Assembly: GCA_903879715.1 (NCBI GenBank)
Contig: CAIRMR010000186.1
Location: 62,001 to 126,000, forward strand
Source of the DNA: an uncultured Bacteroidales bacterium
GTDB lineage: Bacteria; Bacteroidota; Bacteroidia; Bacteroidales; UBA4417
DNA length: 64,000 nt
Reading direction: 5' to 3'
The notes beneath the pieces are model-generated. The model was given only the letters and a program-made list of their open reading frames with translations. It searched no databases and had not been told where the DNA came from. This document shows, piece by piece, positions 6,811-40,592 of this stretch (positions are counted from its first letter, which is position 1; the number at the start of each line of letters is the position of its first letter). A program made the position numbers and the translations under genes.

Positions 6811-9800
6811 ATGAAAAAAAAGCTGTTACTAAGTACGTTTTTATTAGTTTTTTCTTTCTGGGCATGGTCTCAGGAAGTTCAGATCAGTGGAGTCGTGAAA
6901 TCGGCCACGGATAACCTGCCTCTACCGGGAGCTTCAGTTGTTATTAAAGGAACTGTAACCGGAACTACTACCGATATTAACGGTAAATACACCCTTAAAG
7001 CTAACCCTAAACAGGTGTTGGTTTATTCATTCGTTGGAATGACTGCTTATGAAATTACTGTTACCGCAGGCACTAACAATGTGGATGTTATTCTGTCAGA
7101 AGCGGCAGTAATGACATCAGAAGTTGTTGTTGTTGGTTATGGAACACAAAAGAAAAGTGTTACCACAGGAGCCATTTCCAGCGTAAAAGCCAAGGATATG
7201 GAGAAAACTCCCAATGGCCGTGTTGAGCAAGCCTTACAGGGAAGAGTTTCCGGGGTAACCATAGCTGCAAATTCCGGGCAACCAGGTGCTGCCTCCACAA
7301 TTCGCATACGTGGTGTTACTACTTTCGGTGATGGTGGAAATAATCCATTATGGGTTGTTGATGGAGTGGTTGTAGCTGCTGATGGAATCGGGTATATAAA
7401 TCAAGCGGATATTGCATCTATCGAAGTTCTGAAAGATGCTGCATCTGCGGCTATTTATGGAACCAGGGCTGCTACTGGGGTTATTTTGGTTACTACTAAA
7501 AAAGGCCAGGCAGGGAAAATGCAGGTCAACTATAATGCTTTTTATGGCTCATCAGCTCCAGCCAAAACGCTGAAGTTGTTAAATGCAACACAGTATGCGA
7601 CCTTAATAAACGAACGCCAGACGAATGGTGGTTTAGACATTAAGTTTCCTAACGTAGGGCAGTATGGAACTGGTACCGATTGGCAAAAGGCAATTTTCAA
7701 TACCAATGCCATGCGTTATTCGCACGAGCTAAGCGTTAGTGGCGGGAATGACCGATCAACATTTTATACATCTATCGGTATTACTAACCAGGAAGGAATT
7801 GTTTTGCCGGAAATTTCCAACTACAATAAAATAAGTATACGTTTAAATTCCGAACATAAAATATCCAAAGTTTTTACATTTGGACAAACCCTGGGATATA
7901 CACATCAAAAATCAATCGGGATTGGAAATACGAACAGTGAATTCGGTGGACCATTAAGTTCGGCGATAAATCTTGATCCTATTACACCCTTAATTGAAAC
8001 GGATCCTTTGCTTGCCGCCGCTTATCCGGCTGTTGCCATCAGAGATGCCAATGGTAATCCTTACGGAATTTCACCTACCGTGGGGCAGGAAATGACAAAC
8101 CCTTTGGCTTATTCACAAACCAGGTTAGGACAGTTTAACTGGTCCGATGATATCGCAGGAAATGCATACCTTGAAGCAAATATCAATAAACATATTAAAA
8201 TCAGGTCATCTGCCGGTGCTAAATTAGCATTTTGGGGATGGCAGGGATTTACTCCGACTTATTATTTAAATGCTTCAACATCGAACACAGTGAATAATTA
8301 TGGTCAAAGTAACGCAACCGCCCTGGATTGGAACATTGAAAACACTTTATTGTACAGCAATAAGATACAGGATCATGAATTCAGCATTTTACTCGGGCAG
8401 GGAGCTTATGTAAATGGTATCGGAGGCGGAACCTCCAATACGATACAAGGCCTTCCAATCACAAGTTACGAGGATGCTTCCTTTAATTTCAATATCCCAC
8501 AGGCTAACAGGATATCAGGAACTTATGATTATGTAGAACATAAAATATCTTCTTTATTTAGTCGTATTAATTACAATTATAAAGAGAAATATATGTTTAC
8601 CGGTATTATCCGTCGCGACGGTTCCACCCGGTTTGGCGCGAATTATAAATATGGTATATTCCCATCTTTCTCCTTGGGTTGGGTTGTTTCAGGCGAAAGT
8701 TTCTGGAAAACCAATGATATCATCAACACCCTGAAAATCAGGGGTGGATATGGTGTAAACGGTAATGATGGCAGTATCGGAGATTTTGGTTACCTTTCTA
8801 CAGTTGTGGGTGGTTTCAATTACACCATTGGTAATACCGGAAATATTACAACAGGATATGCCCCCAGGACACTTGATAATCCTGATTTGCATTGGGAAGA
8901 AACTTCGCAGTTGAACATTGGGGTTGATGTAAGGTTTTTAACAAACTTTAATGCAGTATTTGAAGTGTTCAAGAAATCTACTAATGGGATATTAAGGAGC
9001 ATCCCAATACCTGGTTATGTTGGTACTTCGGAACAACCTGTAGGAAACGTAGCTGATATGTTCAATAAAGGTATTGAATTCGAATTAGGATATAATAAAA
9101 CATTCGGAGAAGTTACTTTTTCAGCAAATGGTAATATTGCTTATCTGAAAAATGAGGTTACCTATGTGAATTCAGATGCTGATTTTATTACAGGTGGCGC
9201 GTCATTCCAATCTATGGGACCAGTTACAAGGATCGCGGTTGGCCAATCATATAACTCATTCTATGGGTATAAAACAGATGGGATTTTCCAGAATTGGAAT
9301 GAAGTTAATGCTTATGTAAACCCGGCAGGTGGTTTGATTCAACCAAATGCCGCTCCCGGTGATTTGAAATGGGTTGACACAGATGCTGACGGCCTTATTA
9401 CTGAAGCTGATAAAACTTTCCTGGGATCGAGTATTCCTAAATATACCTTTGGTCTGACCTTAAATGCCGCTTACAAAGGATTTGATATCATGATATTTGG
9501 CCAGGGTGCTGCTGGTAACAAAATCTTCCAGGGCCTGCGCCGTTTGGATATTGAATATTCGAACTGGCAGACCATAGCATTAAGCCGCTGGACTGGTGAA
9601 GGCACTTCAAATACATATCCCCGCCTTACCGCTAATGATGCGAATGAAAACTTTGGTAAAATGTCGGATTTTTACCTCGAAAAAGGAGATTATCTGCGAC
9701 TTAAACAACTTCAGATTGGCTATACCATTAATGCGGCCATCCTGAAAAAAATTGATATCAGTAAATTACGCGTATACGTGCAGTCTGAGAATTTGTTCAC

Positions 9801-9915
9801 CTTAACCAAATATTCCGGGTATGATCCTGAAATCGGGGGTGGCGTTTCTGGTATAGACAAAGGCTTTTATCCACAAGCCCGTTCATTTATAGCCGGAGTT
9901 CAATTGCAATTTTAA
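6811..9915 (+). CDS. susC: SusC-family TonB-dependent outer membrane glycan transporter
   Basis: This 1034-residue protein is the outer membrane channel that imports glycan oligomers using TonB energy. It has a signal peptide (residues 1-20) and a carboxypeptidase-regulatory-like beta-sandwich (about 22-105, ISGVVKSATDNLPLPGASVVIKG). The plug domain follows with the SusC signature EVVVVGYGTQKK and QALQGRVSGVTI, then the long beta-barrel ending in GVQLQF with the usual terminal Phe. Length is typical for SusC. The SusD partner begins 76 bases downstream, and the two form a lidded import complex. No anti-sigma-interacting N-terminal extension is seen, which fits control by the upstream propeller regulator. 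The surrounding GH16, GH81 and GH30 genes suggest a beta-1,3/1,6-glucan substrate; this is inferred from context. Confidence 0.95.
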   Translation: MKKKLLLSTFLLVFSFWAWSQEVQISGVVKSATDNLPLPGASVVIKGTVTGTTTDINGKYTLKANPKQVLVYSFVGMTAYEITVTAGTNNVDVILSEAAVMTSEVVVVGYGTQKKSVTTGAISSVKAKDMEKTPNGRVEQALQGRVSGVTIAANSGQPGAASTIRIRGVTTFGDGGNNPLWVVDGVVVAADGIGYINQADIASIEVLKDAASAAIYGTRAATGVILVTTKKGQAGKMQVNYNAFYGSSAPAKTLKLLNATQYATLINERQTNGGLDIKFPNVGQYGTGTDWQKAIFNTNAMRYSHELSVSGGNDRSTFYTSIGITNQEGIVLPEISNYNKISIRLNSEHKISKVFTFGQTLGYTHQKSIGIGNTNSEFGGPLSSAINLDPITPLIETDPLLAAAYPAVAIRDANGNPYGISPTVGQEMTNPLAYSQTRLGQFNWSDDIAGNAYLEANINKHIKIRSSAGAKLAFWGWQGFTPTYYLNASTSNTVNNYGQSNATALDWNIENTLLYSNKIQDHEFSILLGQGAYVNGIGGGTSNTIQGLPITSYEDASFNFNIPQANRISGTYDYVEHKISSLFSRINYNYKEKYMFTGIIRRDGSTRFGANYKYGIFPSFSLGWVVSGESFWKTNDIINTLKIRGGYGVNGNDGSIGDFGYLSTVVGGFNYTIGNTGNITTGYAPRTLDNPDLHWEETSQLNIGVDVRFLTNFNAVFEVFKKSTNGILRSIPIPGYVGTSEQPVGNVADMFNKGIEFELGYNKTFGEVTFSANGNIAYLKNEVTYVNSDADFITGGASFQSMGPVTRIAVGQSYNSFYGYKTDGIFQNWNEVNAYVNPAGGLIQPNAAPGDLKWVDTDADGLITEADKTFLGSSIPKYTFGLTLNAAYKGFDIMIFGQGAAGNKIFQGLRRLDIEYSNWQTIALSRWTGEGTSNTYPRLTANDANENFGKMSDFYLEKGDYLRLKQLQIGYTINAAILKKIDISKLRVYVQSENLFTLTKYSGYDPEIGGGVSGIDKGFYPQARSFIAGVQLQF

Positions 9916-9945
9916 TTTTTACGCATGAGATTTCATTCGTAAAAA
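9916..9945 (+). terminator. Intercistronic hairpin between susC and susD
   Basis: TTTTTACG (9916-9923) pairs with CGTAAAAA (9938-9945). After one mismatch, ATGA (9925-9928) pairs with TCAT (9933-9936) around a GATT loop. The hairpin begins one base after the susC stop codon. It may protect the susC message end or attenuate read-through so that susC and susD differ in level; this role is inferred. Confidence 0.5.
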
Positions 9946-9991
9946 CTGTGCTTTATTAAATTAAGACACTCACAAACAAAATTTAAACAAA

Positions 9992-11503
9992 ATGAAAAAA
10001 AATCGAAATACATTCATATTTTTTACTGCCGCAATGGTTTTGTCCCTTGTATCCTGCAAAAAGGATTTTGTGGAGCTCACACCTAAAGGCCAGTTCCTGA
10101 CAGCCAATTATTACCAGAATGAAGATCAGGCTTATGCTGCACTTGTAGGGGTTTACGATATCATGCGTAAGAACTCAGGCGGATTCGAAAACATGATTAC
10201 CATGATGAATGCCGGATCGGATGACCAATACGCAGGGGGTGGCGGTGCTACCGACGGAGCAGGAATACAGGCATTTTCAAACTTCTCTGAAACTCAGTTT
10301 ACAGTTCCTATTAGTTACTGGAGCGATTTTTACCAGGGGATATTTAAAGCAAATATTCTTTTGCTTAAACTGCCAACCACAACCATGGATGAAGCTTTAA
10401 AAGCAAGATTTGCTGCTGAAACAAAAGCTTTAAGGGCAATGTGTTATTTTAACCTGGTAACCTTGTTTAAAAACGTTCCCTTGATTGTGGAACCATTAGC
10501 AGCCGGTGACATTTATAATGTAGTACAGGCAGACCCTGCTGATGTTTATGCTCAGATAGAAAAAGATCTGACAGAGGCTATTGCTGGATTACCTCCAACA
10601 ATTTCGGCAACCGAATATGGCCGTTTTACGAAAGGAGCCGCCCAGGCATTGCTTGGAAAAGTTTATCTCTACGAAAAGAAAAACGATTTGGCTGCAGCTC
10701 AGCTGGCTGAAGTAAATGGTACACCTGGGGGAACAAGTCAATACGGATACAAACTTTTAAGTAACTATAGTGATCTTTGGGTTGTTGCCAATAAAATGAA
10801 CAGCGAAGGGATTTTAATTACAGCCCATACCAATCTTGGTCTTGGTGGTTGGGGTAACTGGGGTTCAGGTACTGACGAAGGCAATTCCATTTGTGTAATG
10901 GTAGGTCCGAGGGGTTACACAAAAGTAGCATCACCGGCACCAGATTTACCTTCAGGCTGGAGTTTTAATGTTTTTACCGATGAATTTTATAACACTATCA
11001 GATTAGATCCACGTTTTTCTTCTACCGTATTTGATATGAAAGCACTAAAAGACGCTGGCAAGGCTACCTATATTGAGGGGTACAAGAACACCGGCTATTT
11101 CTTCAAAAAATATATGCCAACCCAGGCTGATGTAACTACACTTGGAGGTGACGCTGTACTTAACTACAAACAGGATAGTTATGTTATCCGCCTGGCCGAC
11201 ACCTATTTAATGGAAGCTGAAGCACTGGGCGGAACTGGTCAAAGAGCTCAGGATCTTTTGGATGCTGTAAGGGCAAGGGTCGATCTGTTACCGGTTACCG
11301 TATCATTAGCAGCTATAAAAGCTGAGCGTAGGCTGGAATTAGCCGGCGAGGGCTACCGTTTCTTTGACCTGGTACGTTGGGGTGATGCTGCAACCAGATT
11401 GGCAGACAGAGGTTTTACTCCTAACAAAAACGAGGTTTTCCCAATCCCAAATGCGGAATTGTTAGGTACTAAATTAGTTCAGAATACAGGCTATAACCAA
11501 TAA
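9992..11503 (+). CDS. susD: SusD-family surface glycan-binding lipoprotein
   Basis: This 503-residue partner of the preceding SusC caps the transporter and binds glycan at the cell surface. The N-terminus is a lipoprotein signal with lipobox LSLVSC (Cys about residue 22), followed by KKDFVELTPKGQF, typical of SusD/RagB proteins. Tetratricopeptide-like helices include FAAETKALRAMCYFNLVTLF. The C-terminal family signature RRLELAGEGYRFFDLVRWGDA is clear, ending with the usual PIPNAEL and NTGYNQ tail. Length is normal. It sits between susC and two surface-binding lipoproteins in one compact operon. Confidence 0.95.
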   Translation: MKKNRNTFIFFTAAMVLSLVSCKKDFVELTPKGQFLTANYYQNEDQAYAALVGVYDIMRKNSGGFENMITMMNAGSDDQYAGGGGATDGAGIQAFSNFSETQFTVPISYWSDFYQGIFKANILLLKLPTTTMDEALKARFAAETKALRAMCYFNLVTLFKNVPLIVEPLAAGDIYNVVQADPADVYAQIEKDLTEAIAGLPPTISATEYGRFTKGAAQALLGKVYLYEKKNDLAAAQLAEVNGTPGGTSQYGYKLLSNYSDLWVVANKMNSEGILITAHTNLGLGGWGNWGSGTDEGNSICVMVGPRGYTKVASPAPDLPSGWSFNVFTDEFYNTIRLDPRFSSTVFDMKALKDAGKATYIEGYKNTGYFFKKYMPTQADVTTLGGDAVLNYKQDSYVIRLADTYLMEAEALGGTGQRAQDLLDAVRARVDLLPVTVSLAAIKAERRLELAGEGYRFFDLVRWGDAATRLADRGFTPNKNEVFPIPNAELLGTKLVQNTGYNQ

Positions 11504-13812: not shown

Positions 13813-14832
13813 ATGAATAAACTTACAGCCCTTTTATTTCTTTTGTTTTTTGCCGCGCTCTCCTGTAAAAAAACAGAAAGTACAGAAGCGGATACCGCTC
13901 CGACAAATCTTACTCTAAACCAGATAGTTAGTACTGATAGTAGTGGTAGTGTTTCATTTACCACTGCCGCGACCAATGCAGTTATGTACACTTTCGATTT
14001 TGGAGATGGTACAACAGAAGTCTCTGTTACAGGTGTTGTAACACATCATTATACTACTTCCGCAGTGTATACAGTAACTGTTGTGGCTAAGAGTGCCAGT
14101 GGAAAAACGGCATCTAAGACAACTGTAATCACTGTTACTGTAGTTCAGGGCCTCGTATGGTCGGATGAATTTGATACACCTGGTCCACCTAGTTCTTCAA
14201 AATGGGGTTACGATACAGGTGCCGGCGGCTGGGGTAATAATGAAGCTGAATACTATACCACCCGGACTGATAATGCAGTTGTATCTGATGGTACTCTTAA
14301 AATTATCCTGAAAAAGGAAAGTTACCAGGGTAGTTCATATACCTCGGCCAGGATGTTAACAAAAGGAAAATTTTCCTTCAAATATGGCAAAATCGAAGTA
14401 AGGGCTAAGCTTCCTGCAGGAGGTGGCACCTGGCCGGCAATCTGGATGTTGGGAGATAATATTTCAACTGTTAGCTGGCCTGCCTGTGGAGAAATTGATA
14501 TAATGGAACATTTAGGTAATCAGCTTAACAAAATTTATGGCACTTTGCACTATACCGGTCATTCCGGGGGAAGTGCTGAAGGTGGCACAACTATGATTAC
14601 TAATGCCACAACAGAGTTTCATGTATATAAATGCGAATGGACATCATCCACTATCAAATTTTTTGTGGATGATGCACTTTTTTACACGCACGGCAACACT
14701 GGAAGTTTACCTTTCAATCAGAACTTTTTTATAATTCTTAATGTGGCAATGGGGGGCAATTTTGGAGGAACTATTGATCCGGCTTTTGTTAGCGCGGCGA
14801 TGGAAATTGACTATGTGAGAGTGTATCAGTAG
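13813..14832 (+). CDS. GH16 laminarinase (endo-beta-1,3-glucanase) lipoprotein with PKD domain
   Basis: This 339-residue surface lipoprotein (lipobox FAALSC, Cys 18) should cut internal beta-1,3-glucan bonds. An N-terminal PKD domain (about 30-115, YTFDFGDGTTEVSV) leads into a complete GH16 domain beginning LVWSDEFD. The catalytic motif GEIDIMEH gives the nucleophile Glu227, Asp229 and acid/base Glu232. The insertion residue Met in EIDIME is the laminarinase form. The end, MEIDYVRVYQ, is the usual GH16 C-terminus. It has its own upstream box but lies in the same direction as susCD, and it is the likely surface enzyme that generates oligomers for SusCD. Confidence 0.93.
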   Translation: MNKLTALLFLLFFAALSCKKTESTEADTAPTNLTLNQIVSTDSSGSVSFTTAATNAVMYTFDFGDGTTEVSVTGVVTHHYTTSAVYTVTVVAKSASGKTASKTTVITVTVVQGLVWSDEFDTPGPPSSSKWGYDTGAGGWGNNEAEYYTTRTDNAVVSDGTLKIILKKESYQGSSYTSARMLTKGKFSFKYGKIEVRAKLPAGGGTWPAIWMLGDNISTVSWPACGEIDIMEHLGNQLNKIYGTLHYTGHSGGSAEGGTTMITNATTEFHVYKCEWTSSTIKFFVDDALFYTHGNTGSLPFNQNFFIILNVAMGGNFGGTIDPAFVSAAMEIDYVRVYQ

Positions 14833-14978
14833 GAAAACAAGTAAATAGAAAATGGTCAGATGGGGAAATCGGGAGATTGATGTACTGAGGGACAGGAAAA
14901 GTCAAAACATCGGGGTTTAAGTTGCTGTAACTGGTTTTGCATATTGTTTTTATTAATTTTAGTTTGCCTCTAAAAACG

Positions 14979-16805
14979 ATGTTCAACATAAAAATTATTT
15001 TGGTGGCGATTTTGTTCCCTTTTGTGGGTCTATCGCAAGGACTTTTAACAAACACCGTAAATAGGAATATCACTTCCCTGAACGGCTCCTGGAACTATAT
15101 CATCGATCCTTATGAAAATGGTTATTATAATTTTCACTCGGAAGTCTACGATCAGAAAAACCCAACTTCAACCTCCGCTTTTTATAATAATTACCACGCC
15201 AAGGACAAGTTGGAATTGGTAGAATATGATTTTGATAAATCACCGACAATTATAGTTCCGGGAGATTGGAATACTCAAAAAGAAAACCTGTTTTACTATG
15301 AAGGTACGGTCTGGTATAAAAAATCGTTTGATTACCTGTTAAAAGAAAACAAACGGCTGTATGTTTATTTTGGGGCCATAAATTATAATGCCGATGTGTA
15401 TTTAAATGGTACCAAATTAGGTACGCATGAAGGCGGATTTACTCCGTTTGATTTTGAAGTTACTTCGATTGTAAAGCGAAAAGATAATTATTTGGTAGTT
15501 AAAGCAGACAACAAACGGTCGCTTGAAGCCGTCCCCACTGTAAATACGGATTGGTGGAATTACGGAGGTATCACCAGGGATGTATTGTTAATTGAAGAGC
15601 CAGGCGTGTTAGTTCAGGACTATACGATTCAGTTGAAGAAAGGTGATGTTAATACAATCATTGGCTATGTTACTATGAGTAATCCTGTTCAAGGTAAAAA
15701 AATCACCATTAGCATCCCTGAGTTGAAAATCGAAAAAGAAATCCAAACAACTTCCGGTGGGAAAGCTGTTTTTGAATTCAGTAATGATTCAGGTAATTGG
15801 GGGACTTTAAAATACTGGTCTCCTGAATCGCCAAAACTCTATGAAGTCCTGATTAAAACAGATCATCAGTTATTAAAGGATAATATCGGATTCAGAACCA
15901 TTGAAACTAAGGGCCCGGATATCTTGCTTAACGGCAAATCAATTTACCTGCGGGGAATCAGTATTCATGAGGAATACAAAGGGAAACGTGCTACCCGCGA
16001 ATCGGATGCCCTGGCTCTCTTAAGCTGGGCTAAAGAATTAGGTTGTAATTATGTCAGGCTGGCCCATTATCCGCATAACGAATATATGCTTCGAATGGCG
16101 GATAAAATGGGACTTTTGGTTTGGGAAGAAATTCCTGTTTACTGGACCATAGATTTTAAAAATGAAGCAACCTATAGCAATGCGAAAAACCAATTAACCG
16201 AAGCGATTACAAGAGACAAAAACAGGGCTTGTGTAATCATTTGGTCTATGGCAAATGAAACACCATTGTCCGAAGCCAGGAATTCTTTTTTAATCAAACT
16301 GATTAACCATACCAAAACTCTGGATTCTTCCCGATTAATAAGTGCTGCTCAGTTAACCCGGAATGAAAATGGTATAGGAATAATTGATGATAAAATTGGC
16401 GAATATGTTGATATCATTGCTTTTAATGAGTATATGGGTTGGTATGGCGGTGATCTGGCCACAGCTCCCGAAGTAAATTGGTCAAGCCCATACAATAAGC
16501 CAGTTGTCGTTTCGGAATTTGGCGGTGGCGCAAAACAAGGTTTGCACGGAAGCAGGGATGAACGCTGGACAGAGGAATACCAGGAGTATCTTTATCAGCA
16601 AAACCTGTTGATGATTGATAAAATCCCCAATATCCGTGGCATCAGCCCATGGATTTTAACTGATTTCCGTTCGCCGCGACGAATGTTGCCCGGAATACAG
16701 GATGGATTTAACCGGAAGGGATTGATTTCAGACCAGGGAATGAAGAAAAAAGCATTCTTTATTCTGCAGGATTTTTATAAGACCAAGAAACTTCAATTTG
16801 ATTAA
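14979..16805 (+). CDS. GH2-family glycoside hydrolase (beta-glucuronidase/galactosidase-like fold)
   Basis: This secreted protein has about 608 residues. I chose the ATG at 14979 because it gives a clean signal peptide (MFNIKIILVAILFPFVGLSQG); an earlier TTG at 14937 would add 14 unlikely residues. GH2 domains appear in order. First is the jelly-roll sugar-binding domain (LNGSWNYIIDPYENG to DWWNYGGITRDVLLIE), then an Ig-like domain, then the TIM barrel (LLNGKSIYLRGISIHEEYKG). Acid/base Glu427 lies in SMANETP and nucleophile Glu513 in VVSEFGGG. The exact sugar cannot be read from sequence. In this locus it may remove side groups or hydrolyse terminal beta-glucosyl-type linkages. It overlaps or abuts the next gene, suggesting co-transcription. 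Confidence 0.85.
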   Translation: MFNIKIILVAILFPFVGLSQGLLTNTVNRNITSLNGSWNYIIDPYENGYYNFHSEVYDQKNPTSTSAFYNNYHAKDKLELVEYDFDKSPTIIVPGDWNTQKENLFYYEGTVWYKKSFDYLLKENKRLYVYFGAINYNADVYLNGTKLGTHEGGFTPFDFEVTSIVKRKDNYLVVKADNKRSLEAVPTVNTDWWNYGGITRDVLLIEEPGVLVQDYTIQLKKGDVNTIIGYVTMSNPVQGKKITISIPELKIEKEIQTTSGGKAVFEFSNDSGNWGTLKYWSPESPKLYEVLIKTDHQLLKDNIGFRTIETKGPDILLNGKSIYLRGISIHEEYKGKRATRESDALALLSWAKELGCNYVRLAHYPHNEYMLRMADKMGLLVWEEIPVYWTIDFKNEATYSNAKNQLTEAITRDKNRACVIIWSMANETPLSEARNSFLIKLINHTKTLDSSRLISAAQLTRNENGIGIIDDKIGEYVDIIAFNEYMGWYGGDLATAPEVNWSSPYNKPVVVSEFGGGAKQGLHGSRDERWTEEYQEYLYQQNLLMIDKIPNIRGISPWILTDFRSPRRMLPGIQDGFNRKGLISDQGMKKKAFFILQDFYKTKKLQFD

Positions 16806-16818
16806 TACAAATACTCAG

Positions 16819-17748
16819 TTGAAAAAACAAAGCGCTTATCTGTTATTCATTTCAGTGTGGATTGCGGCATGCAGTTTCGCAGCAAATGCACAGAATAAAA
16901 TTTTCTTTGCATCGAATCCCGTTGTTGCTCATCGTGGTGCCTGGAAGCAGAATAACTTTCCTCAGAACTCCATAGCATCGCTGAAACATGCCATAGAGCT
17001 GAAATGTACAGGGTCAGAGTTTGATGTCCGCATGACGGCAGATGATATTCTTATCATAAATCATGATCCTGAGTATAATAAACTCCCTGTTGAAAAAACG
17101 AAATATAAAGCTTTTGCAGCTTTCAACCTTGCCAATGGCGAAAAACTGCCGACATTACAAGAGTATATAAAGGCAGGTATGAAGAATAATACTTCGACGC
17201 GCCTGGTTTGCGAAATAAAACCATCTGAAATCAGTAAAGAGCGTGGAAAAGCTGTTGCTGAAAAGGTGGTAAAACTGGTTCATAAACTGAAAGCAGATCA
17301 AAGGATTGTGTATATCAGTTTTGATTATGGTATTCTGAAAAGAATTCTTGAACTGGATCCCAAAGCGATTACCCAATATCTCGAAGGAGATAAGTCGCCC
17401 GACCAATTAAAAGCGGATGGCATCAGCGGTGCCGATTTTCATTATTCAGTCTTTGTTGAACATCCTGCCTGGATTGAAATGGCAAAAAAGAACAATATTA
17501 CTCTCAACGCCTGGACGGTGAATGAAGCTGCCGGGATGGACTGGCTTATTTCAAATAATTTTGATTTTATTACTACCAATGAACCGGAATTATTGATGGA
17601 AAGAATAAAGCATTCCCGAACATCGATGGGATGGAAGTTAAAATGTTGTGACGAATTTAATTATTTCGGGTTGCCTGATTCAACAAAATGGGTTTATGTT
17701 ACCGAAGGAAATTCACCAGGTTGGGAAAACAACGACGCACATTTTTAA
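16819..17748 (+). CDS. Secreted GDPD-family phosphodiesterase-like protein with truncated GH16 tail
   Basis: The first 270 residues form a glycerophosphodiester phosphodiesterase-like TIM barrel. Motifs are AHRGAW (His38), PQNSIA, SEFDVRMTADD and NHDP, then VCEIKP, and NAWTVNE near the end, so the metal and catalytic residues look intact. The TTG at 16819 gives a standard signal peptide (KKQSAYLLFISVWIAACSFAANAQ); an overlapping TTG at 16798 is the other option, and no ATG is available. After residue about 270 the sequence changes into the start of a GH16 domain (CCDEFNYFGLPDSTKW), which is cut by an in-frame TAA at 17746-17748. The GDPD part may still work. Its substrate in a glucan locus is unknown; phosphoglycerol-decorated glucan is speculation. 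Confidence 0.75.
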   Translation: MKKQSAYLLFISVWIAACSFAANAQNKIFFASNPVVAHRGAWKQNNFPQNSIASLKHAIELKCTGSEFDVRMTADDILIINHDPEYNKLPVEKTKYKAFAAFNLANGEKLPTLQEYIKAGMKNNTSTRLVCEIKPSEISKERGKAVAEKVVKLVHKLKADQRIVYISFDYGILKRILELDPKAITQYLEGDKSPDQLKADGISGADFHYSVFVEHPAWIEMAKKNNITLNAWTVNEAAGMDWLISNNFDFITTNEPELLMERIKHSRTSMGWKLKCCDEFNYFGLPDSTKWVYVTEGNSPGWENNDAHF

Positions 17749-17851
17749 ACCATTGGCAAAAAAGCAAATGCCGGGGTTTGAAAACGGTAATCCCGACATT
17801 ATTGCCATCAGGGAAGAAATTGAAGAACATTCTGAAACGAGTTATAATTAG
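17632..17851 (+). pseudogene. Decayed GH16 domain remnant fused behind the GDPD domain
   Basis: Reading on from the GDPD gene, the frame gives GWENNDAHF then TAA where a Tyr codon is expected, then TIGKKANAGV. One extra T in the GTTT at 17776-17779 then shifts the frame, and the homology resumes as ENGNPDIIAIREEIEE and ETSYN before a TAG at 17849-17851. This aligns well by eye with the start of the intact GH16 at 13813 (NNEAEYYTTRTDNAVVSDGTLKI). The remaining two-thirds of the GH16 domain, including the catalytic ExDxxE, is gone. At least one nonsense change, one frameshift and one deletion are needed. Confidence 0.75.
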
Positions 17852-17877
17852 AATTTAGAAATTCAAAGAAAAGTATA

Positions 17878-20800
17878 ATGACCAGGAAAGCCATTTATTT
17901 AGGAAAAGCTGAGATTAACACCAACAAGCCTCAGGTTGAGGGCCGGTTTGTGGAAATAGAAAACGAGAAATTCTACAAAATCAGCAACTACAACCAGATG
18001 CCGGATTTCTTTATGACTATTGTTAGCGATTCCGATCACTGGATGTATATTTCGAGCAATGGTTCTCTGTCAGCCGGAAGGAAGGACCGTAACAACGCTC
18101 TGTTTCCGTATTATACCGTTGATAAAATTTATGATTACAGGGATATCACCGGAAGTAAAACAATACTGCTCGTCAGCAAAGATCAGAAAACATATTTATG
18201 GGAACCTTTTACCACCGAGTCGGAGAAAATATACAGCATACAAAGGAATATTTATAAAAACATTTACGGTAATAAAATCATTTTCGAAGAGATTAATGAT
18301 GACCTGGGTGTTGGCTTTCGGTATGGCTGGAACAACAGCGAAAAATTCGGGTTTGTAAAGAAGTCGGTCATCAGCAATCTCAATAGCGGTTCAGTAACCG
18401 TTGATGTACTCGACGGGATTAAGAATATACTGCCCAACGGCGTAGATTACGATTTTCAGAATGCGTTCAGTAATTTGCTTGATGCCTATAAAAAGTGCGA
18501 GTTACTCCCTGAATCAAAGCTTGGTTTGTATATGCTCAGCTCCATTCCCGTTGACCGGGCAGAGCCGAGTGAATCTCTTAAAGCAACATCGGTTTGGATG
18601 TGCGGACCCGAAAACAATGATGTAAAAATTCTGATTTCAAACCACCAGGTTGAAAATTTCAAAAAAGGACTTCCTGTTGAAACAGAAACTGATATCAGGG
18701 CCACTCGGGGTGCATACTATGTGAATGCGAGCCTTACTCTTGAAAAAGATACCAGCAAAGAATGGATGATTGTTGCTGAAATTAACCAGCAAAGCGGAGA
18801 TGTGGCAAACCTGGATCATGCCATAAAAACAACGAATAAGATAAAACAACTGGTTGAAGCCGATATTGAAAAAGGAACCTCAAACCTGAAGAAAATTGTT
18901 TCCAAAGCGGATGGAATGCAATTGAGTAACGACGTGTTAAGCTGTACCCGCCATTTCTCAAATACGCTTTTCAACGTGATGAGAGGTGGGATTTTTCCCA
19001 ATAATTACATTCTGGATAAACCTGACTTTGTGCTTTTTGTCGGGCAAATTAATAAAGACATAAGCGATAAATATACTACATGGCTGGATCGGTTGCCTGA
19101 AACATTCAGTTATATAGAACTACTGGGTCTGGCCGAAAAAACCACAGACCAGGATCTGATCAGGATTTGCTCCGAATATCTTCCTCTTACTTTCAGTCGC
19201 AGGCATGGTGATCCAAGCCGGCCTTGGAACCAGTTCTCGATAGAAACAAAAAATGAAGATGGCTCGGTAAAATTGAATTACCAGGGAAACTGGCGCGATA
19301 TTTTTCAAAACTGGGAAGCGCTCAGCCTTTCGTATCCTGAATTCCTGGAAGGTATGATCAGCAAATTTTTAAATGCCACAACCGCCGATGGTTATAATCC
19401 ATACCGTGTTACCCGCGAAGGTCTCGATTGGGAAAGCCCTGATCCGCACGACCCCTGGGCTTACATTGGCTACTGGGGCGACCACCAGATAATCTACCTC
19501 CAGAAGTTTCTCGAATTATCGGGTGAATTCCATCCGGGTACTCTTGATGCTTTATTGCGAAAGGAAATGTTTGTTTATGCCAATGTGCCTTACCGTATAA
19601 AATCATATTCCGAAATTGTTAAGAATCCAAAGGATACCATTGTTTTTGATTTCGGATTAAATGATAAAATTAAAGCGCTTACCCGGAAAACCGGTGCCGA
19701 TGGTGTTTTGTTGAGAGACGGGGAAAATGAAATATACAAGGTTAACCTTACCGAAAAAATTCTGGTCACTTTGCTTGCTAAGCTTAGCAACTTTATTCCC
19801 GAAGCTGGCATCTGGCTCAACACCCAACGTCCTGAATGGAACGATGCCAACAATGCCCTGGTAGGCAACGGTGTTTCGATGGTCACGCTTTGCTATTTAA
19901 GGCGCTTCCTTAAGTTCTGGACTGAAAGGTTTAATGAATCATCAAGCTATGAAATTCCCGTTTCCGAAGAAGTAGGAATCTTTTTCGATAAGATATTTAC
20001 TCTTTTTTCAGAAAATACCGCTCTGCTTGTAAGCGGTTTTTCAGATGCCGACAGGCGTCTTTTTGCAGATACCCTTGGGGAAGCCGGAAGCGATTACAGA
20101 AACACCGTTTACTCAACATCTTTCTCGGGCCGGAAAATGATGATCCAGGTAAAAGCTTTGGCTGAATTCACTCAACTCGCTTTGGAATATATGGATCAGT
20201 CCATTAAAGTTAACAAACGCGAAGATGGACTTTACCATTCGTATAACCTGATTTCGCTTTCCAGCCAGAGTGTGGCTATCCGCCATTTGTACGAAATGCT
20301 CGAAGGACAGGTTGCTGTGTTAAGTTCCGGTTATTTATCGGTTCAGGAAAGCCTGGATGTGCTTAACGCGTTAAAAGCTAGTAGTTTATTCCGGAAAGAT
20401 CAATATAGTTATCTGCTTTATCCCGACAGGCAATTACCTCTTTTTACACAGAAAAACAATATCCCTGACAGCAAGGTTAAATCTTCGAGATTGCTCAGCC
20501 AGTTGGTTGCCGATGCGGATACCTCTGTTTTAAGTGCTGATAATCTGGGTAACTTCCACTTTAACGGAACATTCCGTAATTCCGGAGTTCTGGAGAAAGC
20601 TTTAAATCAGCTGGAACCGAAGAGATATGCATCACTTCTTGCCAAAGAAAAGGAAACGATACTTGCAATTTATGAAGATCTTTTCGACCATCAATCCTTT
20701 ACCGGGCGTTCGGGTACATTTTATGGGTACGAAGGATTGGGAAGTATATACTGGCACATGGTTTCAAAATTGTTGATTGCAGCCCAGGAATGCTATTTTA

Positions 20801-21348
20801 AAGCTGTGTATGAAGGAGCCGATCCGGTAGTAATCGGTAAAATTAAAGATCATTATTTCGAAATTAAAGCGGGAATAGGCTTGAATAAATCACCTGATCT
20901 GTACGGTGCTTTTCCAACGGATGCTTATTCGCACACTCCCGGAAACGCGGGCGCTCAACAGCCCGGCATGACCGGACAGGTTAAAGAAGACTTCATATCG
21001 CGCTTAAGGGAATTGGGAATTCATGTACAGGATGGGGAAATTGTATTTCAATCCAGCTTATTGAATCCGGAAGAGTTATTGAACAATGAAAGCATTTTCG
21101 GGTATTTTGATCTGAAGGGAGAGCCTCAGCAAATAACCCTTGAACAAGCTCAGCTTGGATTTACTTTCTGCCAGGTTCCCATCGTTTACCGTTCGGCAAA
21201 CGAAGCTGAAACTTCTATCGCTTTCGCAGATGGGAAACAGATTATCATAAAAGGTCATACTATCGGTAAAGAAATAAGTTCCAAAATATTTCAGCGTACA
21301 GGAGATATTGTCCGGATAGACGTTTCGTTCAATGATTTTGTAAGGTAA
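17878..21348 (+). CDS. GH94-like (GH149/GH161-type) beta-1,3-glucan phosphorylase, cytoplasmic
   Basis: This 1156-residue protein has no signal peptide, so it acts in the cytoplasm. It starts with a beta-sandwich region (YISSNGSLSAGRKDRNNALFPYY) similar to inverting disaccharide phosphorylases. An alpha/alpha barrel follows (DIFQNWEALSLSYPEFLEG, GLDWESPDPHDPWAYIGYWGD). The motif PEWNDANNALVGNG resembles the GH94 catalytic WND, making Asp656 the probable general acid. At 1156 residues it is far longer than GH94 cellobiose phosphorylases (about 800) but matches the length I know for the GH149 and GH161 beta-1,3-glucan phosphorylases, which release glucose 1-phosphate. Both occur in Bacteroidota glucan loci. 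I cannot choose between them by eye. It is followed by a GPH transporter that could supply oligosaccharides. Confidence 0.75.
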   Translation: MTRKAIYLGKAEINTNKPQVEGRFVEIENEKFYKISNYNQMPDFFMTIVSDSDHWMYISSNGSLSAGRKDRNNALFPYYTVDKIYDYRDITGSKTILLVSKDQKTYLWEPFTTESEKIYSIQRNIYKNIYGNKIIFEEINDDLGVGFRYGWNNSEKFGFVKKSVISNLNSGSVTVDVLDGIKNILPNGVDYDFQNAFSNLLDAYKKCELLPESKLGLYMLSSIPVDRAEPSESLKATSVWMCGPENNDVKILISNHQVENFKKGLPVETETDIRATRGAYYVNASLTLEKDTSKEWMIVAEINQQSGDVANLDHAIKTTNKIKQLVEADIEKGTSNLKKIVSKADGMQLSNDVLSCTRHFSNTLFNVMRGGIFPNNYILDKPDFVLFVGQINKDISDKYTTWLDRLPETFSYIELLGLAEKTTDQDLIRICSEYLPLTFSRRHGDPSRPWNQFSIETKNEDGSVKLNYQGNWRDIFQNWEALSLSYPEFLEGMISKFLNATTADGYNPYRVTREGLDWESPDPHDPWAYIGYWGDHQIIYLQKFLELSGEFHPGTLDALLRKEMFVYANVPYRIKSYSEIVKNPKDTIVFDFGLNDKIKALTRKTGADGVLLRDGENEIYKVNLTEKILVTLLAKLSNFIPEAGIWLNTQRPEWNDANNALVGNGVSMVTLCYLRRFLKFWTERFNESSSYEIPVSEEVGIFFDKIFTLFSENTALLVSGFSDADRRLFADTLGEAGSDYRNTVYSTSFSGRKMMIQVKALAEFTQLALEYMDQSIKVNKREDGLYHSYNLISLSSQSVAIRHLYEMLEGQVAVLSSGYLSVQESLDVLNALKASSLFRKDQYSYLLYPDRQLPLFTQKNNIPDSKVKSSRLLSQLVADADTSVLSADNLGNFHFNGTFRNSGVLEKALNQLEPKRYASLLAKEKETILAIYEDLFDHQSFTGRSGTFYGYEGLGSIYWHMVSKLLIAAQECYFKAVYEGADPVVIGKIKDHYFEIKAGIGLNKSPDLYGAFPTDAYSHTPGNAGAQQPGMTGQVKEDFISRLRELGIHVQDGEIVFQSSLLNPEELLNNESIFGYFDLKGEPQQITLEQAQLGFTFCQVPIVYRSANEAETSIAFADGKQIIIKGHTIGKEISSKIFQRTGDIVRIDVSFNDFVR

Positions 21349-26799: not shown

Positions 26800-29037
26800 A
26801 TGAACGCAAAAATCAATACAGCACTCTTGCTGATACTTTTATTCCTGAACCCGATCCTTTTTGCGCAATCTCAGCAAAAAACTGTTGATCAGCGGGTTGA
26901 TTCCGTTATGCGGTTAATGACTCCTGAAGAAAAAATAGGACAGCTAAATCAATACAGTGATGACTGGACTGCAACCGGACCGGTAACAGTTGACAATGAT
27001 AAAACCAGACAGGTGCGCAACGGTCAGGTTGGTTCCATGTTAAACTGCAAAGGAACTGACCGTACCCGGTGGTGGCAGGAAGCTGCCATGAAATCCCGTT
27101 TAAAAATTCCGCTGCTGTTTGGACAGGATGTGGTCCACGGGTATAAAACCACTTTCCCAATTCCTCTTGCTGAATCCTGCAGCTGGGACCTGGATGCTAT
27201 GACACTGTCAGCTCGAATTGCTGCCACCGAAGCAAGTGCAGGCGGCATCCACTGGACTTTTGCACCTATGGTTGATATTGCCCGCGATCCCCGCTGGGGA
27301 AGAATGATGGAAGGTGCCGGCGAAGACCCTTACCTGGGTTCTATGATTGCGGCCGCCAGGGTTAAAGGCTTCCAGGGCAATAAATTAGGCGACATCAATT
27401 CAATGATGGCTTGTGCCAAGCATTTTGCAGCTTATGGAGCAGTAATTGGCGGCAGGGATTATAATTCCGTTGATATGAGCGAACGGCTTTTGCTGGAAGT
27501 ATACCTGCCTCCTTTTAAAGCAGCTGCAGAGGCAGGTGTTGCAACATTTATGAATTCATTTAACGATATAAACGGAGTTCCTGCAACCGGGAACAGTTAT
27601 CTGCAACGCGATATACTTAAAGGTCAATGGGGTTTCAAAGGATTTGTGGTGAGTGATTGGGGTTCTGTGGGCGAAATGGTATCTCATGGCAGTGCTAAAA
27701 ACGACTATGAAGCAGCCTTTTCCGCTATAACTGCCGGCTGCGATATGGACATGGAAAGCCGTTGCTACAAAAATTACCTTGCCCAACTGGTAGCCGATGG
27801 AAAAGTGTCAATGGCATTGATTGATGATGCAGTGCGAAGAATCCTGGAAAAGAAATTTGAACTTGGCTTATTTGATGATCCTTTTAAATATTGCGATGCA
27901 GAACGTGAACAGAAAGAACTGAACAACCCGGAGCATCCAAAGATTGCCAGGGAAATGGCTGACAGGAGTATCGTTTTACTGAAAAATCAGAATAACCTGC
28001 TGCCATTATCCAAAAACACAAAAACAATTGCATTTATTGGGCCGTTGGTAAAAGCGGTAAAGCAAAACAAAGGATTCTGGGATGTGGAAGTTCCCGGAGT
28101 TGATTCCAGCTATATTGTTTCGCAATGGGCAGGATTGGTCAATAAAGTTGGTGCTACTACGAAATTACTTTATGCAAAAGGTTGTGAAATTGAAGGCAGT
28201 GATAAATCAGGATTCGATGAAGCTGTCAGGATCGCGAAACAATCGGATGTTGTTATTCTTAGCATTGGCGAAAGAAGGGATATGAGCGGTGAAGCCAGGA
28301 GTCGCAGTAATATAGATATTCCGGGCGTTCAGGAAGATTTATTAAAGGTTCTGCTGGCAACGGGTAAACCGGTGGTAGTTTTAATTAATGCCGGCCGTCC
28401 GCTTGTGTTTAATTACACCGCCGACAACGCAACAGCTATTTTATATACCTGGTGGCTGGGTAGCGAAGCCGGTAATGCCATTGCTGATGTTCTTTTTGGC
28501 GACTTTAATCCTTCTGCCAAGCTGTCTGTCACTTTCCCTCAGAGTGTAGGGCAAATACCAATTTATTACAGTCATCTAAATACGGGCCGGCCTGTAACTA
28601 ATGGCGATGTTCCTAATACTTCCTACATCGATTTATCCATTTATCCGAAGTTTGAATTTGGTTTTGGATTAAGTTTTACCACATTTAAATACAGTGATCT
28701 GAAATTGAACAAAAATAAAATCAGCAATACTGGGGAAATTGAAGTATCTTTAACCGTCTCTAATACAGGGAAATATGCCGGAGAAGAAATCGTCCAGTTA
28801 TATCTCAGAGATTTAGCAGGCTCAATCTCAAGGCCGGTGAAAGATCTGAAGGATTTCGCGAAAATAGCTTTGAACGCAGGAGAGTCCAAAATAGTCAGAT
28901 TCACGATTGACAAAGAAAAACTCTCTTTCTACAACCAAAAACTGCAATGGGTTGCCGAGCCAGGTGAATTTGAACTGATGATTGGTGCATCTTCCTCCGA
29001 TATCAGGTTGAATTCAGTATTTGAGTTGGTTAATTAG
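26800..29037 (+). CDS. bglX: GH3 beta-glucosidase (BglX-like)
   Basis: This 745-residue secreted enzyme (signal peptide LLLILLFLNPILFAQ) should release glucose from beta-gluco-oligosaccharides in the periplasm. The TIM-barrel domain shows GQDVVHGYKTTFPIPLAES, FAPMVDIARDPRWGRMMEGAGEDPYLGS and KHFAAYGA. The nucleophile Asp286 lies in VVSDWGSV. The alpha/beta sandwich domain (IVLLKNQNNLLPLSK) and C-terminal fibronectin-like domain (FGFGLSFTTFKYSDL, IQLYLRDL-like VQLYLRDLAGS) complete the standard architecture. Length matches BglX. It has no sorting domain, so it is probably periplasmic. It lies between a GPH transporter and the GH81 gene. Confidence 0.93.
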   Translation: MNAKINTALLLILLFLNPILFAQSQQKTVDQRVDSVMRLMTPEEKIGQLNQYSDDWTATGPVTVDNDKTRQVRNGQVGSMLNCKGTDRTRWWQEAAMKSRLKIPLLFGQDVVHGYKTTFPIPLAESCSWDLDAMTLSARIAATEASAGGIHWTFAPMVDIARDPRWGRMMEGAGEDPYLGSMIAAARVKGFQGNKLGDINSMMACAKHFAAYGAVIGGRDYNSVDMSERLLLEVYLPPFKAAAEAGVATFMNSFNDINGVPATGNSYLQRDILKGQWGFKGFVVSDWGSVGEMVSHGSAKNDYEAAFSAITAGCDMDMESRCYKNYLAQLVADGKVSMALIDDAVRRILEKKFELGLFDDPFKYCDAEREQKELNNPEHPKIAREMADRSIVLLKNQNNLLPLSKNTKTIAFIGPLVKAVKQNKGFWDVEVPGVDSSYIVSQWAGLVNKVGATTKLLYAKGCEIEGSDKSGFDEAVRIAKQSDVVILSIGERRDMSGEARSRSNIDIPGVQEDLLKVLLATGKPVVVLINAGRPLVFNYTADNATAILYTWWLGSEAGNAIADVLFGDFNPSAKLSVTFPQSVGQIPIYYSHLNTGRPVTNGDVPNTSYIDLSIYPKFEFGFGLSFTTFKYSDLKLNKNKISNTGEIEVSLTVSNTGKYAGEEIVQLYLRDLAGSISRPVKDLKDFAKIALNAGESKIVRFTIDKEKLSFYNQKLQWVAEPGEFELMIGASSSDIRLNSVFELVN

Positions 29038-29252
29038 AAACCTGACAAAAGAAATAAAAGTCTGTTTCCCTCATAAGATCAGGTTGTGCTTTCTTCTTTT
29101 TTGTTATAATTTCTGATCCTCATTTTATAGTATCAGCCTGATTGCCTGATAAAACAGATTCATGTTGCGGAATCACATGAGTTTTTTAAGTCATCTATTC
29201 GTTGCTGCCAGATACAAATACCACAAATTGAAATGAATCTAATCTTAAAATA

Positions 29253-32200
29253 ATGAATAAACTTTTTAGTCTTGCATTAATTTCTCTTTTATCGGTCTCA
29301 ATCCCGGTACTAAGTCAGGTGATACCTGTTGGAAGCGGTAGCTATACCAAAACATTCCCTGGTACTGATGTGCTGGGACGAAACTTAATCCCTTCGGGTA
29401 CGCCCCAGGTTAGTGGTAACGCAATTGGTAAACCTGCGCCAACAAGCGACTGGTGGTCGGCATTGATAAAGAATGGACAGGCTTCCAACCTTTTTAACTA
29501 CCCGTTTACTATGAAAACCAAAAACAGCGGTTTGGTCGTAACCTATATTCCTTCGGGAGTGATCGACGATATTGAGCCCGTTACTGTTGGCGTTTCCGGG
29601 ATGACAGCTACAAAAACCACTGTTTCTGATTTTTCTGACTGGACAGTTACAATGGATTGGAATGATGGAATTCATGATTTTAAGACAACTTCCGGAGTAG
29701 GTATGCCATTCCTGTATTTTACTAAAAGTGCAGCTGATGTGGCCCAGGTAACAGTGACTTCAGGAACTGTAGTTGTTTCGGGCGAAATGCTTGTTATTAC
29801 TGACTTGAGAAACGGAGCCGATTTTGCTGTTTATGCTCCGTCAGGAAGTACCTGGTCACAGAATGGAGCAATTTACACCTCTACCCTGAATGGACAGAAT
29901 TATTGGTCGATGGCGTTTATTCCGCTTACCGCAGCCAATGTTACTGCCGTAGCTACTGAGTACAAGAAATATGCTTACGTTTTTCCTGTAAATACTACAG
30001 CTACCTATAGTTATAATGAAAGTACTTCGGTAATGCGAACCGACTTCAATGTAGTTACAGAAGTTAAAGAAGGATCCGAAACAAATATGCTGATCGGATT
30101 GCTGCCTCATCAATGGGCACATCTTTCGGCTGATTCGCCGGTTCCGGATAAATACAGTTACACAATTGTTCGGGGCCAAATGAAAACAATGGCAGGCAAT
30201 AGTTTTAGCGTCGAGAATACGTTTCACGGCATTTTGCCGACATTGCCTTATTTAGATAATTACAGTACTGGATTTTCGCCTTCAGCATTAACGGAAAAAA
30301 TTGCAAGCCTGGAAAATAATACGCTCGCAACCTGGACAGATTCATATAACGAAGGCCAGGTTATGAACCAACTGGTGCAAACTGCACGGATCGCCGACGA
30401 AATGGGAAATATTGCTTCGCGGAACAAAATTCTATCCACAATTAAAACCCGCCTCGAAGACTGGTTTAAAGCCGAAAGCGGTGAAGTGGCATTTATTTTT
30501 TATTACAATACGGCATGGTCGGCGATGATTGGCTATCCTGCCGGATACTATCAGGATCAATACCTGAATGACCGTCATTTTCATTGGGGGTACTTTATTC
30601 ATGCTGCTGCTTTTATTGAGCAGTACGAACCAGGTTGGGCTGCTCAATGGGGCGGTATGGTTAATATGCTTGTTCGTGATGCCGCTTGTCCTGATCGGAA
30701 TGATGCAATGTTTCCTTACCTGCGGAATTTCAGCCCCTATGAAGGACATAGCTGGGCCGATGGTTTTGCCGGTAACCCGGCTGGTAACAACCAGGAATCG
30801 AGTTCCGAAAGTATGGTTTTCGCTTCTTCACTTATACACTGGGGCGAATTAACAGCGGATAAAACCATCCGCGATTTAGGTATTTATATTTATACCACGG
30901 AGCAAACCGGGATTGAAGAATATTATATGGATACCAAAGAGCGGAATTTTCCGGCTTCGCAGCAATACAGCCTGGTATCGCGTGTATGGACTAACAGCAT
31001 CGATAACGGTACTTTCTGGACCAGCGATATAGCTGCATCCTATGGCATTGAAATTTATCCTATTCATGGCGGTTCACTTTACCTGGGACTTGATACAGCT
31101 TATGTTGCGAAACTTTGGAACGAAGTGGCGGCCAATACCGGTATTTTGAACAACCAGGTGAATCCAAATCTGTGGCACGACATGTGGTGGGAATACCTGG
31201 CTTTCATAGATCCCGCAAAAGCAATTGAAATGTATAATTCATACCCTGAACGGGAAATAAAATTTGGTATTTCTGACGCTCAGACTTACCATTGGCTGCA
31301 TGCCATGAATGCCTTGGGAAGGGTTGATGCTGCTATTACGGCAGATTATCCTGTTGCGGCGGCTTTTATTCTTCATGGAGAAATCAATTATGTCGCCCAC
31401 AATTATTCCGATGCGCCTATTACTGTCACTTTTTCAACCGGCTATCAACTTGTTGTTCCGGCCCGGAAAATGGTAACCAGCAAGGACAGTCCAATAACAG
31501 GAATCTTAACATCTTCGTTTCAGCAAGCGGCTGTTAAGGGCAGTGTTATTCTAAATGTTATGGCTTCAGGCGGAACACCAACCAAAGTTGAATTTATGGA
31601 TGGAACCGTATCGTTAGGATCAGTAACCACGGAACCCTACACCTGGAACGCAACCAATTTACAGTTGGGGGTACATAGTTTTTATGCTAAAGTGTATGCC
31701 GCTGATAAGTTTAATGTTACCAATAGTTCTGAAATTCAGGTTGGTCAACAGTTACCTTATGGTGGAACCGCATGGGCCATTCCGGGGACTATCCAAGCTG
31801 GAAACTATGATACCTATGAAGGCGGAAAAGGCCAGAATATAGCATATATGGATGTGACGACCACTAACTCAGGTGATTTCAGGACAGACGAATATGTTGA
31901 TGCTACAAGCAATGTTACCGAAGGGGCATATGTCGGGTCAATTGCTGCGGGTGAATGGCTGGAATATACCGTAAATGTTACCCAGGCAGGTATCTATTCG
32001 TTTGCTTTCCGTTATGCTTCCGGCAATTTAGCTGGCGGAGGACCATTCCATCTTCAATTAGATGGTCAGACTATTTCCGGTGATATTTCCGTTTCTGCAA
32101 CTTCCGGCACCGTTTGGACTGTCTGGTTAACAAAAAATGTTACCGGCATTCCTCTCACTCCCGGTCAGCATGTATTGCGGTTAGCTTTTTCATCCGGCGA

Positions 32201-37168: not shown

Positions 37169-37244
37169 TTAGATTCCATGGTATTCGACAGTATTTATTC
37201 AAATAAACAATTGGTATCTCATTCAGTTAAAGATAAAACGTAAG

Positions 37245-38699: not shown

Positions 38700-38731
38700 T
38701 ACTAATTAATAATTTGAAAATTAAAACTTTA

Positions 38732-40498: not shown

Positions 40499-40592
40499 TA
40501 TTTCCCGTTTTGAAATTGTTCGCGCTTCTTTCGCGATGAGACAGATTTAAATCAGCATTAAAAATAATAACTGTATAATTAAACAATTCAAT

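Follow-up and report, generated by a model that had tools for sequence, protein, structure and literature searches.

Organisation of the beta-glucan PUL

A beta-glucan PUL occupies the first 42 kb of the window (the whole 64,000-nucleotide stretch of DNA analysed here), in a host genome of 6.07 Mb (223 contigs, 1.59% contamination). All window features given below lie on the + strand. The PUL begins with a Y_Y_Y/LuxR-type regulator (3053..5950), located upstream of SusC, and continues with SusC and SusD (6811..11503, profile matches), two proteins without a Pfam family, an intact PKD-GH16 gene (13813..14832) that is the sole PF00722 match of the genome, and a GH2 glycosidase (14937..16805, first ATG at 14979). 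The GH2 gene adjoins the 5' side of the GDPD gene (16819..17748), which lies two genes downstream of the intact GH16. The GDPD gene is followed by a GH149 beta-1,3-glucan phosphorylase (17878..21348; NF058639, 1724.7 bits, cut-off 1150; PDB 6hq6), an MFS gene, two more genes and a second MFS gene. Domain searches assigned the rest (26800..42050) to GH3, GH81-CBM6, GH5-CBM6, a CBM6 frame and three GH30 genes. The GH5-CBM6 gene (34405-36186) overlaps the CBM6 frame (36137-37168, CBM6 and Por_Secre_tail), and 34405-37168 is possibly a single protein split by a frameshift. Of two proteins encoded at 23036-25062, within the PUL, one is weakly GH2_C/GH72-like and the other matches neither Pfam nor NCBIfam. 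There was no tRNA in the window, no Rfam match in positions 1-30000, and a Pfam scan that covered 24 window proteins gave no Exo_endo_phos domain; glpK of this genome lies on another contig.

The laminarin PUL of Muricauda lutaonensis is similar in encoding a PKD protein, GH2, GH16, GH149 or GH3, GH30 and MFS proteins, and a LuxR-type gene comes first in many of the clusters described with it, as in the window PUL (PMC13188888). Unlike the window it has two GH17 genes, and its description in that paper names no GDPD; the words 'phosphodiesterase' and 'glycerol' are absent from the main text (PMC13188888).

The GDPD gene and its GH16 remnant

The GDPD gene (309 codons) encodes a signal-peptide-like N-terminus, a GDPD barrel and about 40 residues of a GH16 N-terminus, and ends at a TAA (17746-17748). 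Its GDPD domain (16930..17589) matched PF03009 with an E-value of 8.1e-26 (92.0 bits, cut-off 23.6) over profile positions 1-243 of 244. The defining catalytic motifs of GDPD are HRG, ExD and HD, and the translation carries HRG, EFD, HD and EIK. The gene likely starts at TTG 16819, since this codon aligns with the ATG starts of two same-genus relatives (G009 and G008); a third, G003, also has TTG at that site, but with an in-frame ATG just upstream. TTG 16798 is an alternative start, and the first in-frame ATG (17032) lies inside the barrel. In the predicted model of the 309-residue product, most barrel blocks have pLDDT values above 90, and the GH16 tail has values of 40-61. The nearest stand-alone solved GDPD, 3NO3 (BDI_0402 of Parabacteroides distasonis), has the same fold and motifs and matches the window protein at 177.0 bits by sequence; the GDPD part of the G003 model superimposes on this TIM barrel with Z 35.2 and rmsd 1.4 over 235 residues. 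Unlike the GDPD-GH16 fusion, 3NO3 is a single domain, and we know of no link between it and glucans. The window GDPD is the only PF03009 gene of its genome and may for that reason have a housekeeping role. A tblastn search of the protein against plasmids gave 69 records, every one below 60% identity.

The GH16 remnant (17626..17832, start approximate) corresponds by homology to the opening third of GH16 in intact fusions, and the DNA alignment with the intact G003 fusion is unbroken up to 17832. It carries three lesions. A TAA stop (17746..17748) replaces the TAT (Tyr) of intact relatives such as G003; one extra T (17776..17779, at about 17777) shifts the frame relative to G003 and G008; and a deletion joint (17833..17849) of about 17 bases, aligning with neither side, stands where the rest of GH16 is missing. 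The GH149 gene leader begins about 17 bases after 17832. Consequently, the window copy has neither a complete GH16 beta-jelly-roll with ExDxxE, as homology stops before the active site, nor both domains in one open frame.

The missing end was searched for in the window genome, using the last 217 residues of the G003 fusion as query, and was not found; apart from the remnant, the search matched only the intact GH16 paralogue at 45% identity and gave one further hit without significance (E 0.15). Three other readings were rejected. Chance similarity does not account for an unbroken alignment across the GDPD end and GH16 start of a relative's gene. The remnant is not a partial copy of the GH16 at 13813, as the fusion GH16 is just 45% identical to that paralogue and the remnant DNA aligns with the G003 fusion gene, likewise in frame after GDPD. 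Relocation of the GH16 end along with the regulator left no trace in the window or the genome.

Intact fusions in the same genus

Intact GDPD-GH16 frames were present in 4 of the 15 same-genus genomes (G002, G003, G008 and G011; 507-524 residues from the first ATG). In G009 GDPD stands alone in an open frame; read by eye, a short stretch past its stop still resembles a GH16 start, and nearly all of the GH16 half is lost. The remaining ten genomes, some of them incomplete, gave no good fusion match, and two of these had a weak hit to the GH16 stretch. The gene order is GH16, GH2, fusion, regulator, GH149 in G003; GH16, fusion, GH149 in G008; and fusion, GH3 in G002 and G011.

An earlier note on this DNA, made from the letters alone, had described a GDPD barrel with intact motifs running into a broken GH16, and the PF03009 match and the four motifs bear out the first part. 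The DNA alignment reproduces the lesions it listed, at the positions it gave: TAA for Tyr, an extra T at about 17777-17779, and loss of the rest of the domain including the active site. Its proposal of a fused ancestor agrees with the intact fusions of relatives, which occupy the same PUL position, next to the phosphorylase in G008 and one gene away from it in G003, and with the continuous alignment of the remnant to the G003 gene.

The nearest relative of the window is G003; as G003 keeps GH16, the window and G009 likely lost it separately, with the branching order among these four same-genus rows not resolved by the tree. The PUL regulator, upstream of SusC in the window, lies between the GDPD gene and GH149 in G003 and G009, with DNA identities of 74.5% and 75.2% to the window copy respectively. 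At its different positions (window 3053-5950, L032 5005-7899, L034 6221-9115) it is more diverged than its neighbours. Identity between window and G003 DNA is 94% at 6566-7704, 89% at 7705-14848, 85% at 14847-17832 and 81% over GH149. The GH16 deletion may have arisen through gene shuffling within this PUL.

Selection on the two halves of the gene

The dN/dS of the window GDPD domain (238 codons) was low, 0.111 against G003, 0.083 against G008 and 0.067 against G009, compared to 0.064-0.100 for pairs among the relatives where computable; these values are rough, as dS exceeds 1 in most pairs. By this measure the window GDPD half looks still constrained, evolving like the GDPD of intact relatives. 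Changes were also polarised by G008 and G009. In GDPD, 13 synonymous and 10 nonsynonymous changes fell on the window branch and 15 and 17 on the G003 branch (51 ambiguous). Across the 38 codons of the remnant that precede the stop, the window branch had 1 synonymous and 7 nonsynonymous changes, and the G003 branch 4 and 2 (4 ambiguous). Numbers are small (one-sided Fisher, window remnant vs. window GDPD, p 0.038; window remnant vs. G003 remnant, p 0.063), and the counts fit a relaxed remnant and a retained GDPD. Because the GDPD half appears constrained and an intact GH16 lies two genes upstream, the loss may concern a redundant half rather than the target, and perhaps is limited to the GH16 half.

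The whole gene could instead be a pseudogene, with the GDPD half unused too and its constraint predating a recent break. We consider this improbable but worth keeping in mind. It would suit a gene with TTG only and no ATG start, and with three lesions near each other; but in G009 and G008 an ATG start aligns with the TTG, which recurs in G003, the window-branch changes are less skewed in GDPD than in the remnant (in small numbers), and G009 too keeps an open GDPD without GH16. An assembly artefact is very improbable in spite of the 223 contigs and 1.59% contamination, as one misjoin would not give three separate lesions in a short stretch, the remnant changes are mostly nonsynonymous, and a second same-genus genome (G009) has a still shorter remnant.

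Spread and structure of the GDPD-GH16 fusion

A scan of genome contigs, queried with two GDPD peptides, confirmed 206 relatives, of which 80 loci were kept. Complete fusions were present in 34 of these 80, including the four of the same genus. As the queries were GDPD peptides, fusions with a broken GDPD would escape the scan; this, together with the keeping of 80 of 206 loci, may partly be why GH16 rather than GDPD is seen as the broken half. In an even draw of 198 genomes of the phylum, a full-length fusion match was found in six (one counted with a TAA inside) and a split pair in one more. The tree contained 90 rows, 83 of the clade and 7 of the outgroup (L032, L033, L035 and L036 were omitted as duplicates of L037-L040). 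The clade rows comprised 36 fused genes, L050 (fused, but with GH16 interrupted early by an in-frame stop), 5 split but adjacent pairs of GDPD and GH16 genes (Pricia, Maribacter, Zobellia), 40 GDPDs alone (including G009) and the window. Fused rows came from Flavobacteriaceae, Chitinophagaceae, Sphingobacteriaceae, Leadbetterellaceae, Saprospiraceae, Prolixibacteraceae and others.

Frames of 501-591 residues were open in 34 of the 36 fused rows; the other two were L066, with a stop in GH16, and L074, with a run of N. L074 was rejected as a decaying GDPD, its gap being the run of N read as X. HRG, ExD and HD were present in 37 of 37 fused rows (L050 counted), and the GH16 motif ExDxxE in the open frame of 36, lying beyond the in-frame stop in L050. 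PF00722 matched the two intact relatives tested at 86.1 (G003) and 89.9 bits (L065), with a cut-off of 22. L050 (Lacihabitans soyangensis, 9998-11500) and L066 (a MAG titled LacPavin, 10771-12273) each have a single in-frame stop in an otherwise complete GH16, which may be either real or a sequencing error. In L068 (Fulvivirga, 9941-12400) the fusion is directly followed by a second GDPD of the clade. In both Aureibaculum genomes the fusion is the sole PF03009 gene.

The fusion is already known as a structure, to which the window adds a decayed version. PDB entries 7WW4 and 7WWC ('multidomain beta-1,3(4)-glucanase') have the same two domains in the same order, and the predicted model of the G003 fusion (pLDDT 91.8, pTM 0.85) aligns with 7WWC over 476 residues (Z 46.8, rmsd 1.4 A, 51% identity). 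From the window copy, two thirds of GH16 are missing. The titles of the PDB entries mention the glucanase alone. One passage of PMC12448869 presents 7WWC as a Pedobacter terrae glucanase crystallised with laminarin, without accompanying publication, and another attaches the code to a xylanase. The GH16 half of the fusion matched 3ILN, the GH16 laminarinase of Rhodothermus marinus, at 375.6 bits by profile. ExDxxE is common to the fusion GH16 halves and to GH16 laminarinases (3ILN, Zobellia LamA), unlike the window remnant, which has no active site. In the open-access literature we found no paper linking GDPD with GH16, laminarinase or laminarin utilization, and no test of the second (GDPD) active site of 7WW4/7WWC.

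Gene neighbourhoods of the GDPD clade

Neighbours were surveyed within 10.5 kb, contig ends permitting, and labelled by their best phmmer hits. Near the 36 fused genes we found SusC (21), regulator (18), SusD (15), Exo_endo_phos (14, one on the other strand), GH3 (13), a further GH16 (9), GH30 (7), GH149 (5), GlpF (5) and GlpK (5), and neither GH144 nor a SOGP-type phosphorylase within that distance of any of them. Seven fused rows (L046-L049, L053, L062 and L067) had no marker gene besides themselves, some of which contig ends may hide; some fused loci lie outside any recognisable PUL. Near the 40 rows of GDPD alone there were SusC (24), SusD (21), GH3 (18), GH43-type (16), GH144 (15), regulator (12) and SOGP-type (1) genes, and 12 rows were without marker genes, contig ends again possibly hiding some. 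At 17 GDPD loci outside the clade, SusC was present in two, GH3 with GH2 in one, and GH16, GH144 or GH149 in none.

GH16, GH144, SOGP, GH149 or GH3 lay near 24 of 45 split or alone clade rows vs. 1 of 17 other GDPDs (p 0.0005), the 24 being counted by hand on contigs of differing length and 15 of them belonging to one Flavobacterium clade. In those 15 Flavobacterium loci (L081, 806-12732, and 14 others) the stand-alone GDPD lies near GH144 and GH3, in a PUL of SusC, SusD, (LamG), GH144, GH3, GDPD and GH43. The GH144 of L081 matched the solved endo-beta-1,2-glucanases 5GZK (513 bits) and 5GZH (about 511.4 bits); PF10091 was matched in L081 and L088, and in the other 13 loci GH144 was called by phmmer against L081 only. 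GH144 endo-beta-1,2-glucanase PULs hold stand-alone members of the same GDPD clade and, within 10.5 kb of GH144, none of the 36 fused genes; a GDPD beside a beta-1,2-glucanase suggests a decorated periplasmic glucan as food. L076 (Chitinophagaceae, 1734-18550) has GH35, a SOGP-type phosphorylase, GH3, GDPD, a regulator and SusCD.

Phosphatase-family and glycerol genes

An Exo_endo_phos-type gene lay 3' on the same strand in 13 of the 42 fused or split loci, as the next gene in 11 and after one GH16 gene in L055 and L059. The one member tested, that of L051, matched PF03372 at 47.5 bits (cut-off 24.5); two others did not reach NCBIfam cut-offs. The protein of L061 was nearest to 3MPR (a putative family member) and then to 4C1R, named mannosyl-6-phosphatase (165.7 bits). 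The Exo_endo_phos family holds nucleases as well.

The glpK-glpF pair lay 5' of the PUL in 5 of the 42 loci (Algibacter miyuki, Aureibaculum flavum, A. luteum and two Gelidibacter species), a lower bound, as some loci are cut off short of where glp genes would be expected. The order in these loci is glycerol kinase and MIP channel, regulator, SusC, SusD-type, fusion, (GH16), Exo_endo_phos and GH3. GlpD-like and DeoR-type (glpR-like) regulator genes precede glpK-glpF in the four genomes followed, in each of which the PUL-linked glycerol kinase is the only one above the TIGR01311 cut-off (590.35). Two partial frames of the kinase scored 632.4 and 691 bits with this model. The MIP channel exceeded the cut-offs of PF00230 (141.7, cut-off 25) and TIGR00861 (182.4, cut-off 171.25), with a lactate transporter as its best equivalog, far under the cut-off of that equivalog. 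The GlpD-like protein reached 305.7 bits with the best GlpD model (cut-off 360) and the DeoR-type regulator 234.4 bits against AgaR (cut-off 260). Outside the glp-PUL block the genes differ among the three genera (ORF lists, by eye).

As a control, glpK was searched in 60 Flavobacteriaceae genomes (one being Gelidibacter itself) and matched in 24; 20 loci were fetched from the other 23, spanning about 3 kb 5' and 13-14 kb 3' where contigs allowed and less in L159 and L169. SusC, SusD, GDPD or GH16 was found at 40 bits in none of these 20 loci. One of the 20 (L156, 3207-8700) has glpD-, glpK- and glpF-like genes directly followed by GH3, with no GDPD nearby, and is perhaps a relic of the glp-PUL block.

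Proposed substrate and mechanism

The window gene is a GDPD-GH16 fusion decayed in its GH16 half. In our judgement the chances are about even that its intact counterparts act on a beta-glucan with a phosphodiester substituent, most likely phosphoglycerol. The ancestral enzyme would have been bifunctional, probably secreted, and part of a beta-glucan PUL. In intact copies GH16 would cut the beta-1,3-glucan chain and GDPD would hydrolyse the phosphodiester on the glucan, for which phosphoglycerol, as it occurs on periplasmic glucans of bacteria, is the likeliest group. In loci with the accessory genes, an Exo_endo_phos-family phosphatase would free the phosphate, and glycerol would enter through the GlpF-like channel and be used by GlpK and the GlpD-like enzyme. 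In the window, a deletion took two thirds of the GH16 half, the stop and frameshift broke the rest, and GDPD would persist as a shorter protein; the second GH16 of the PUL would cover the lost glucanase step, so that the free-standing GDPD could keep working.

The phosphoglycerol group of periplasmic glucans is the 1-enantiomer, which would explain the uptake of glycerol and not glycerol phosphate. B. subtilis GlpQ is described as specific for sn-glycerol-3-phosphate (PMC7086022). Backbones of Gram-negative periplasmic glucans are described as beta-1,2 or cyclic beta-1,3/1,6, and they can carry phosphoglycerol, succinate and phosphoethanolamine, as studied above all in E. coli (PMC10514313). 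A GDPD that accompanies GH144 and GH16 PULs, partly with phosphatase and glycerol genes, fits the removal of phosphoglycerol from such glucans. The link to glycerol is limited to a glp block in five Flavobacteriaceae, and the GH81 and GH30 genes of the window suit fungal glucan or laminarin as well as bacterial glucan.

The earlier note had already suggested a beta-glucan with a phosphodiester substituent as the target. Indirect support for this comes from what surrounds the clade: genes of a phosphatase family, genes for glycerol use and PULs for beta-1,2-glucan. Its wording that this was 'once' a target is not supported, as the GDPD half evolves like that of intact relatives and an intact GH16 lies two genes upstream.

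More broadly, and with rather less confidence than the even case above, we suggest that some Bacteroidota PULs are devoted to phosphoglycerol-decorated beta-glucans, with one GDPD clade as the remover of the decoration, either fused to GH16 (beta-1,3) or free beside GH144 (beta-1,2). In some Flavobacteriaceae the PUL would be joined to a phosphatase and glycerol uptake block, the decoration being eaten with the glucan. If so, these PULs would form a route by which periplasmic glucans from dead Gram-negative cells are recycled, and the window would represent its state after loss of a redundant half. Decorated periplasmic glucans are a sugar of bacterial necromass, and a candidate enzymatic route for their breakdown would then exist. 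A domain that annotation assigns to lipid breakdown would be a glycan-decoration enzyme, the crystallised 'glucanase' (7WW4/7WWC) would have a second active site, and PULs acting on phosphorylated glucans would be recognisable from sequence.

The strongest competing explanation, which we rate as unlikely but not by a wide measure, is that the GDPD half scavenges free glycerophosphodiesters, derived from the membrane lipids of algae, fungi or bacteria that are eaten, and travels with beta-glucan genes since a single lysed cell offers both substrates. Glycerophosphodiesters are the usual substrates of GDPDs, the motifs are canonical here, a glp block would serve glycerol of any origin, and marker genes are absent near 12 of 40 stand-alone and 7 of 36 fused rows. 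However, fusion to an endo-glucanase in one polypeptide across many families, and the presence of clade members in both beta-1,3- and beta-1,2-glucan PULs, fit a glucan-bound substrate better, and at the 17 other GDPD loci a neighbouring beta-glucan enzyme (GH3) was seen only once. Phosphocholine occurs on bacterial glucans, and in fungi a phosphodiester joins cell-wall proteins to beta-1,6-glucan. That one of these, or phosphoethanolamine on bacterial glucans, is the true substrate seems to us distinctly improbable: phosphoethanolamine is possible on periplasmic glucans (PMC10514313) and GH81 and the three GH30 of the window PUL suit a beta-1,3/1,6-glucan, but the kinase gene linked to the PULs is a glycerol kinase.
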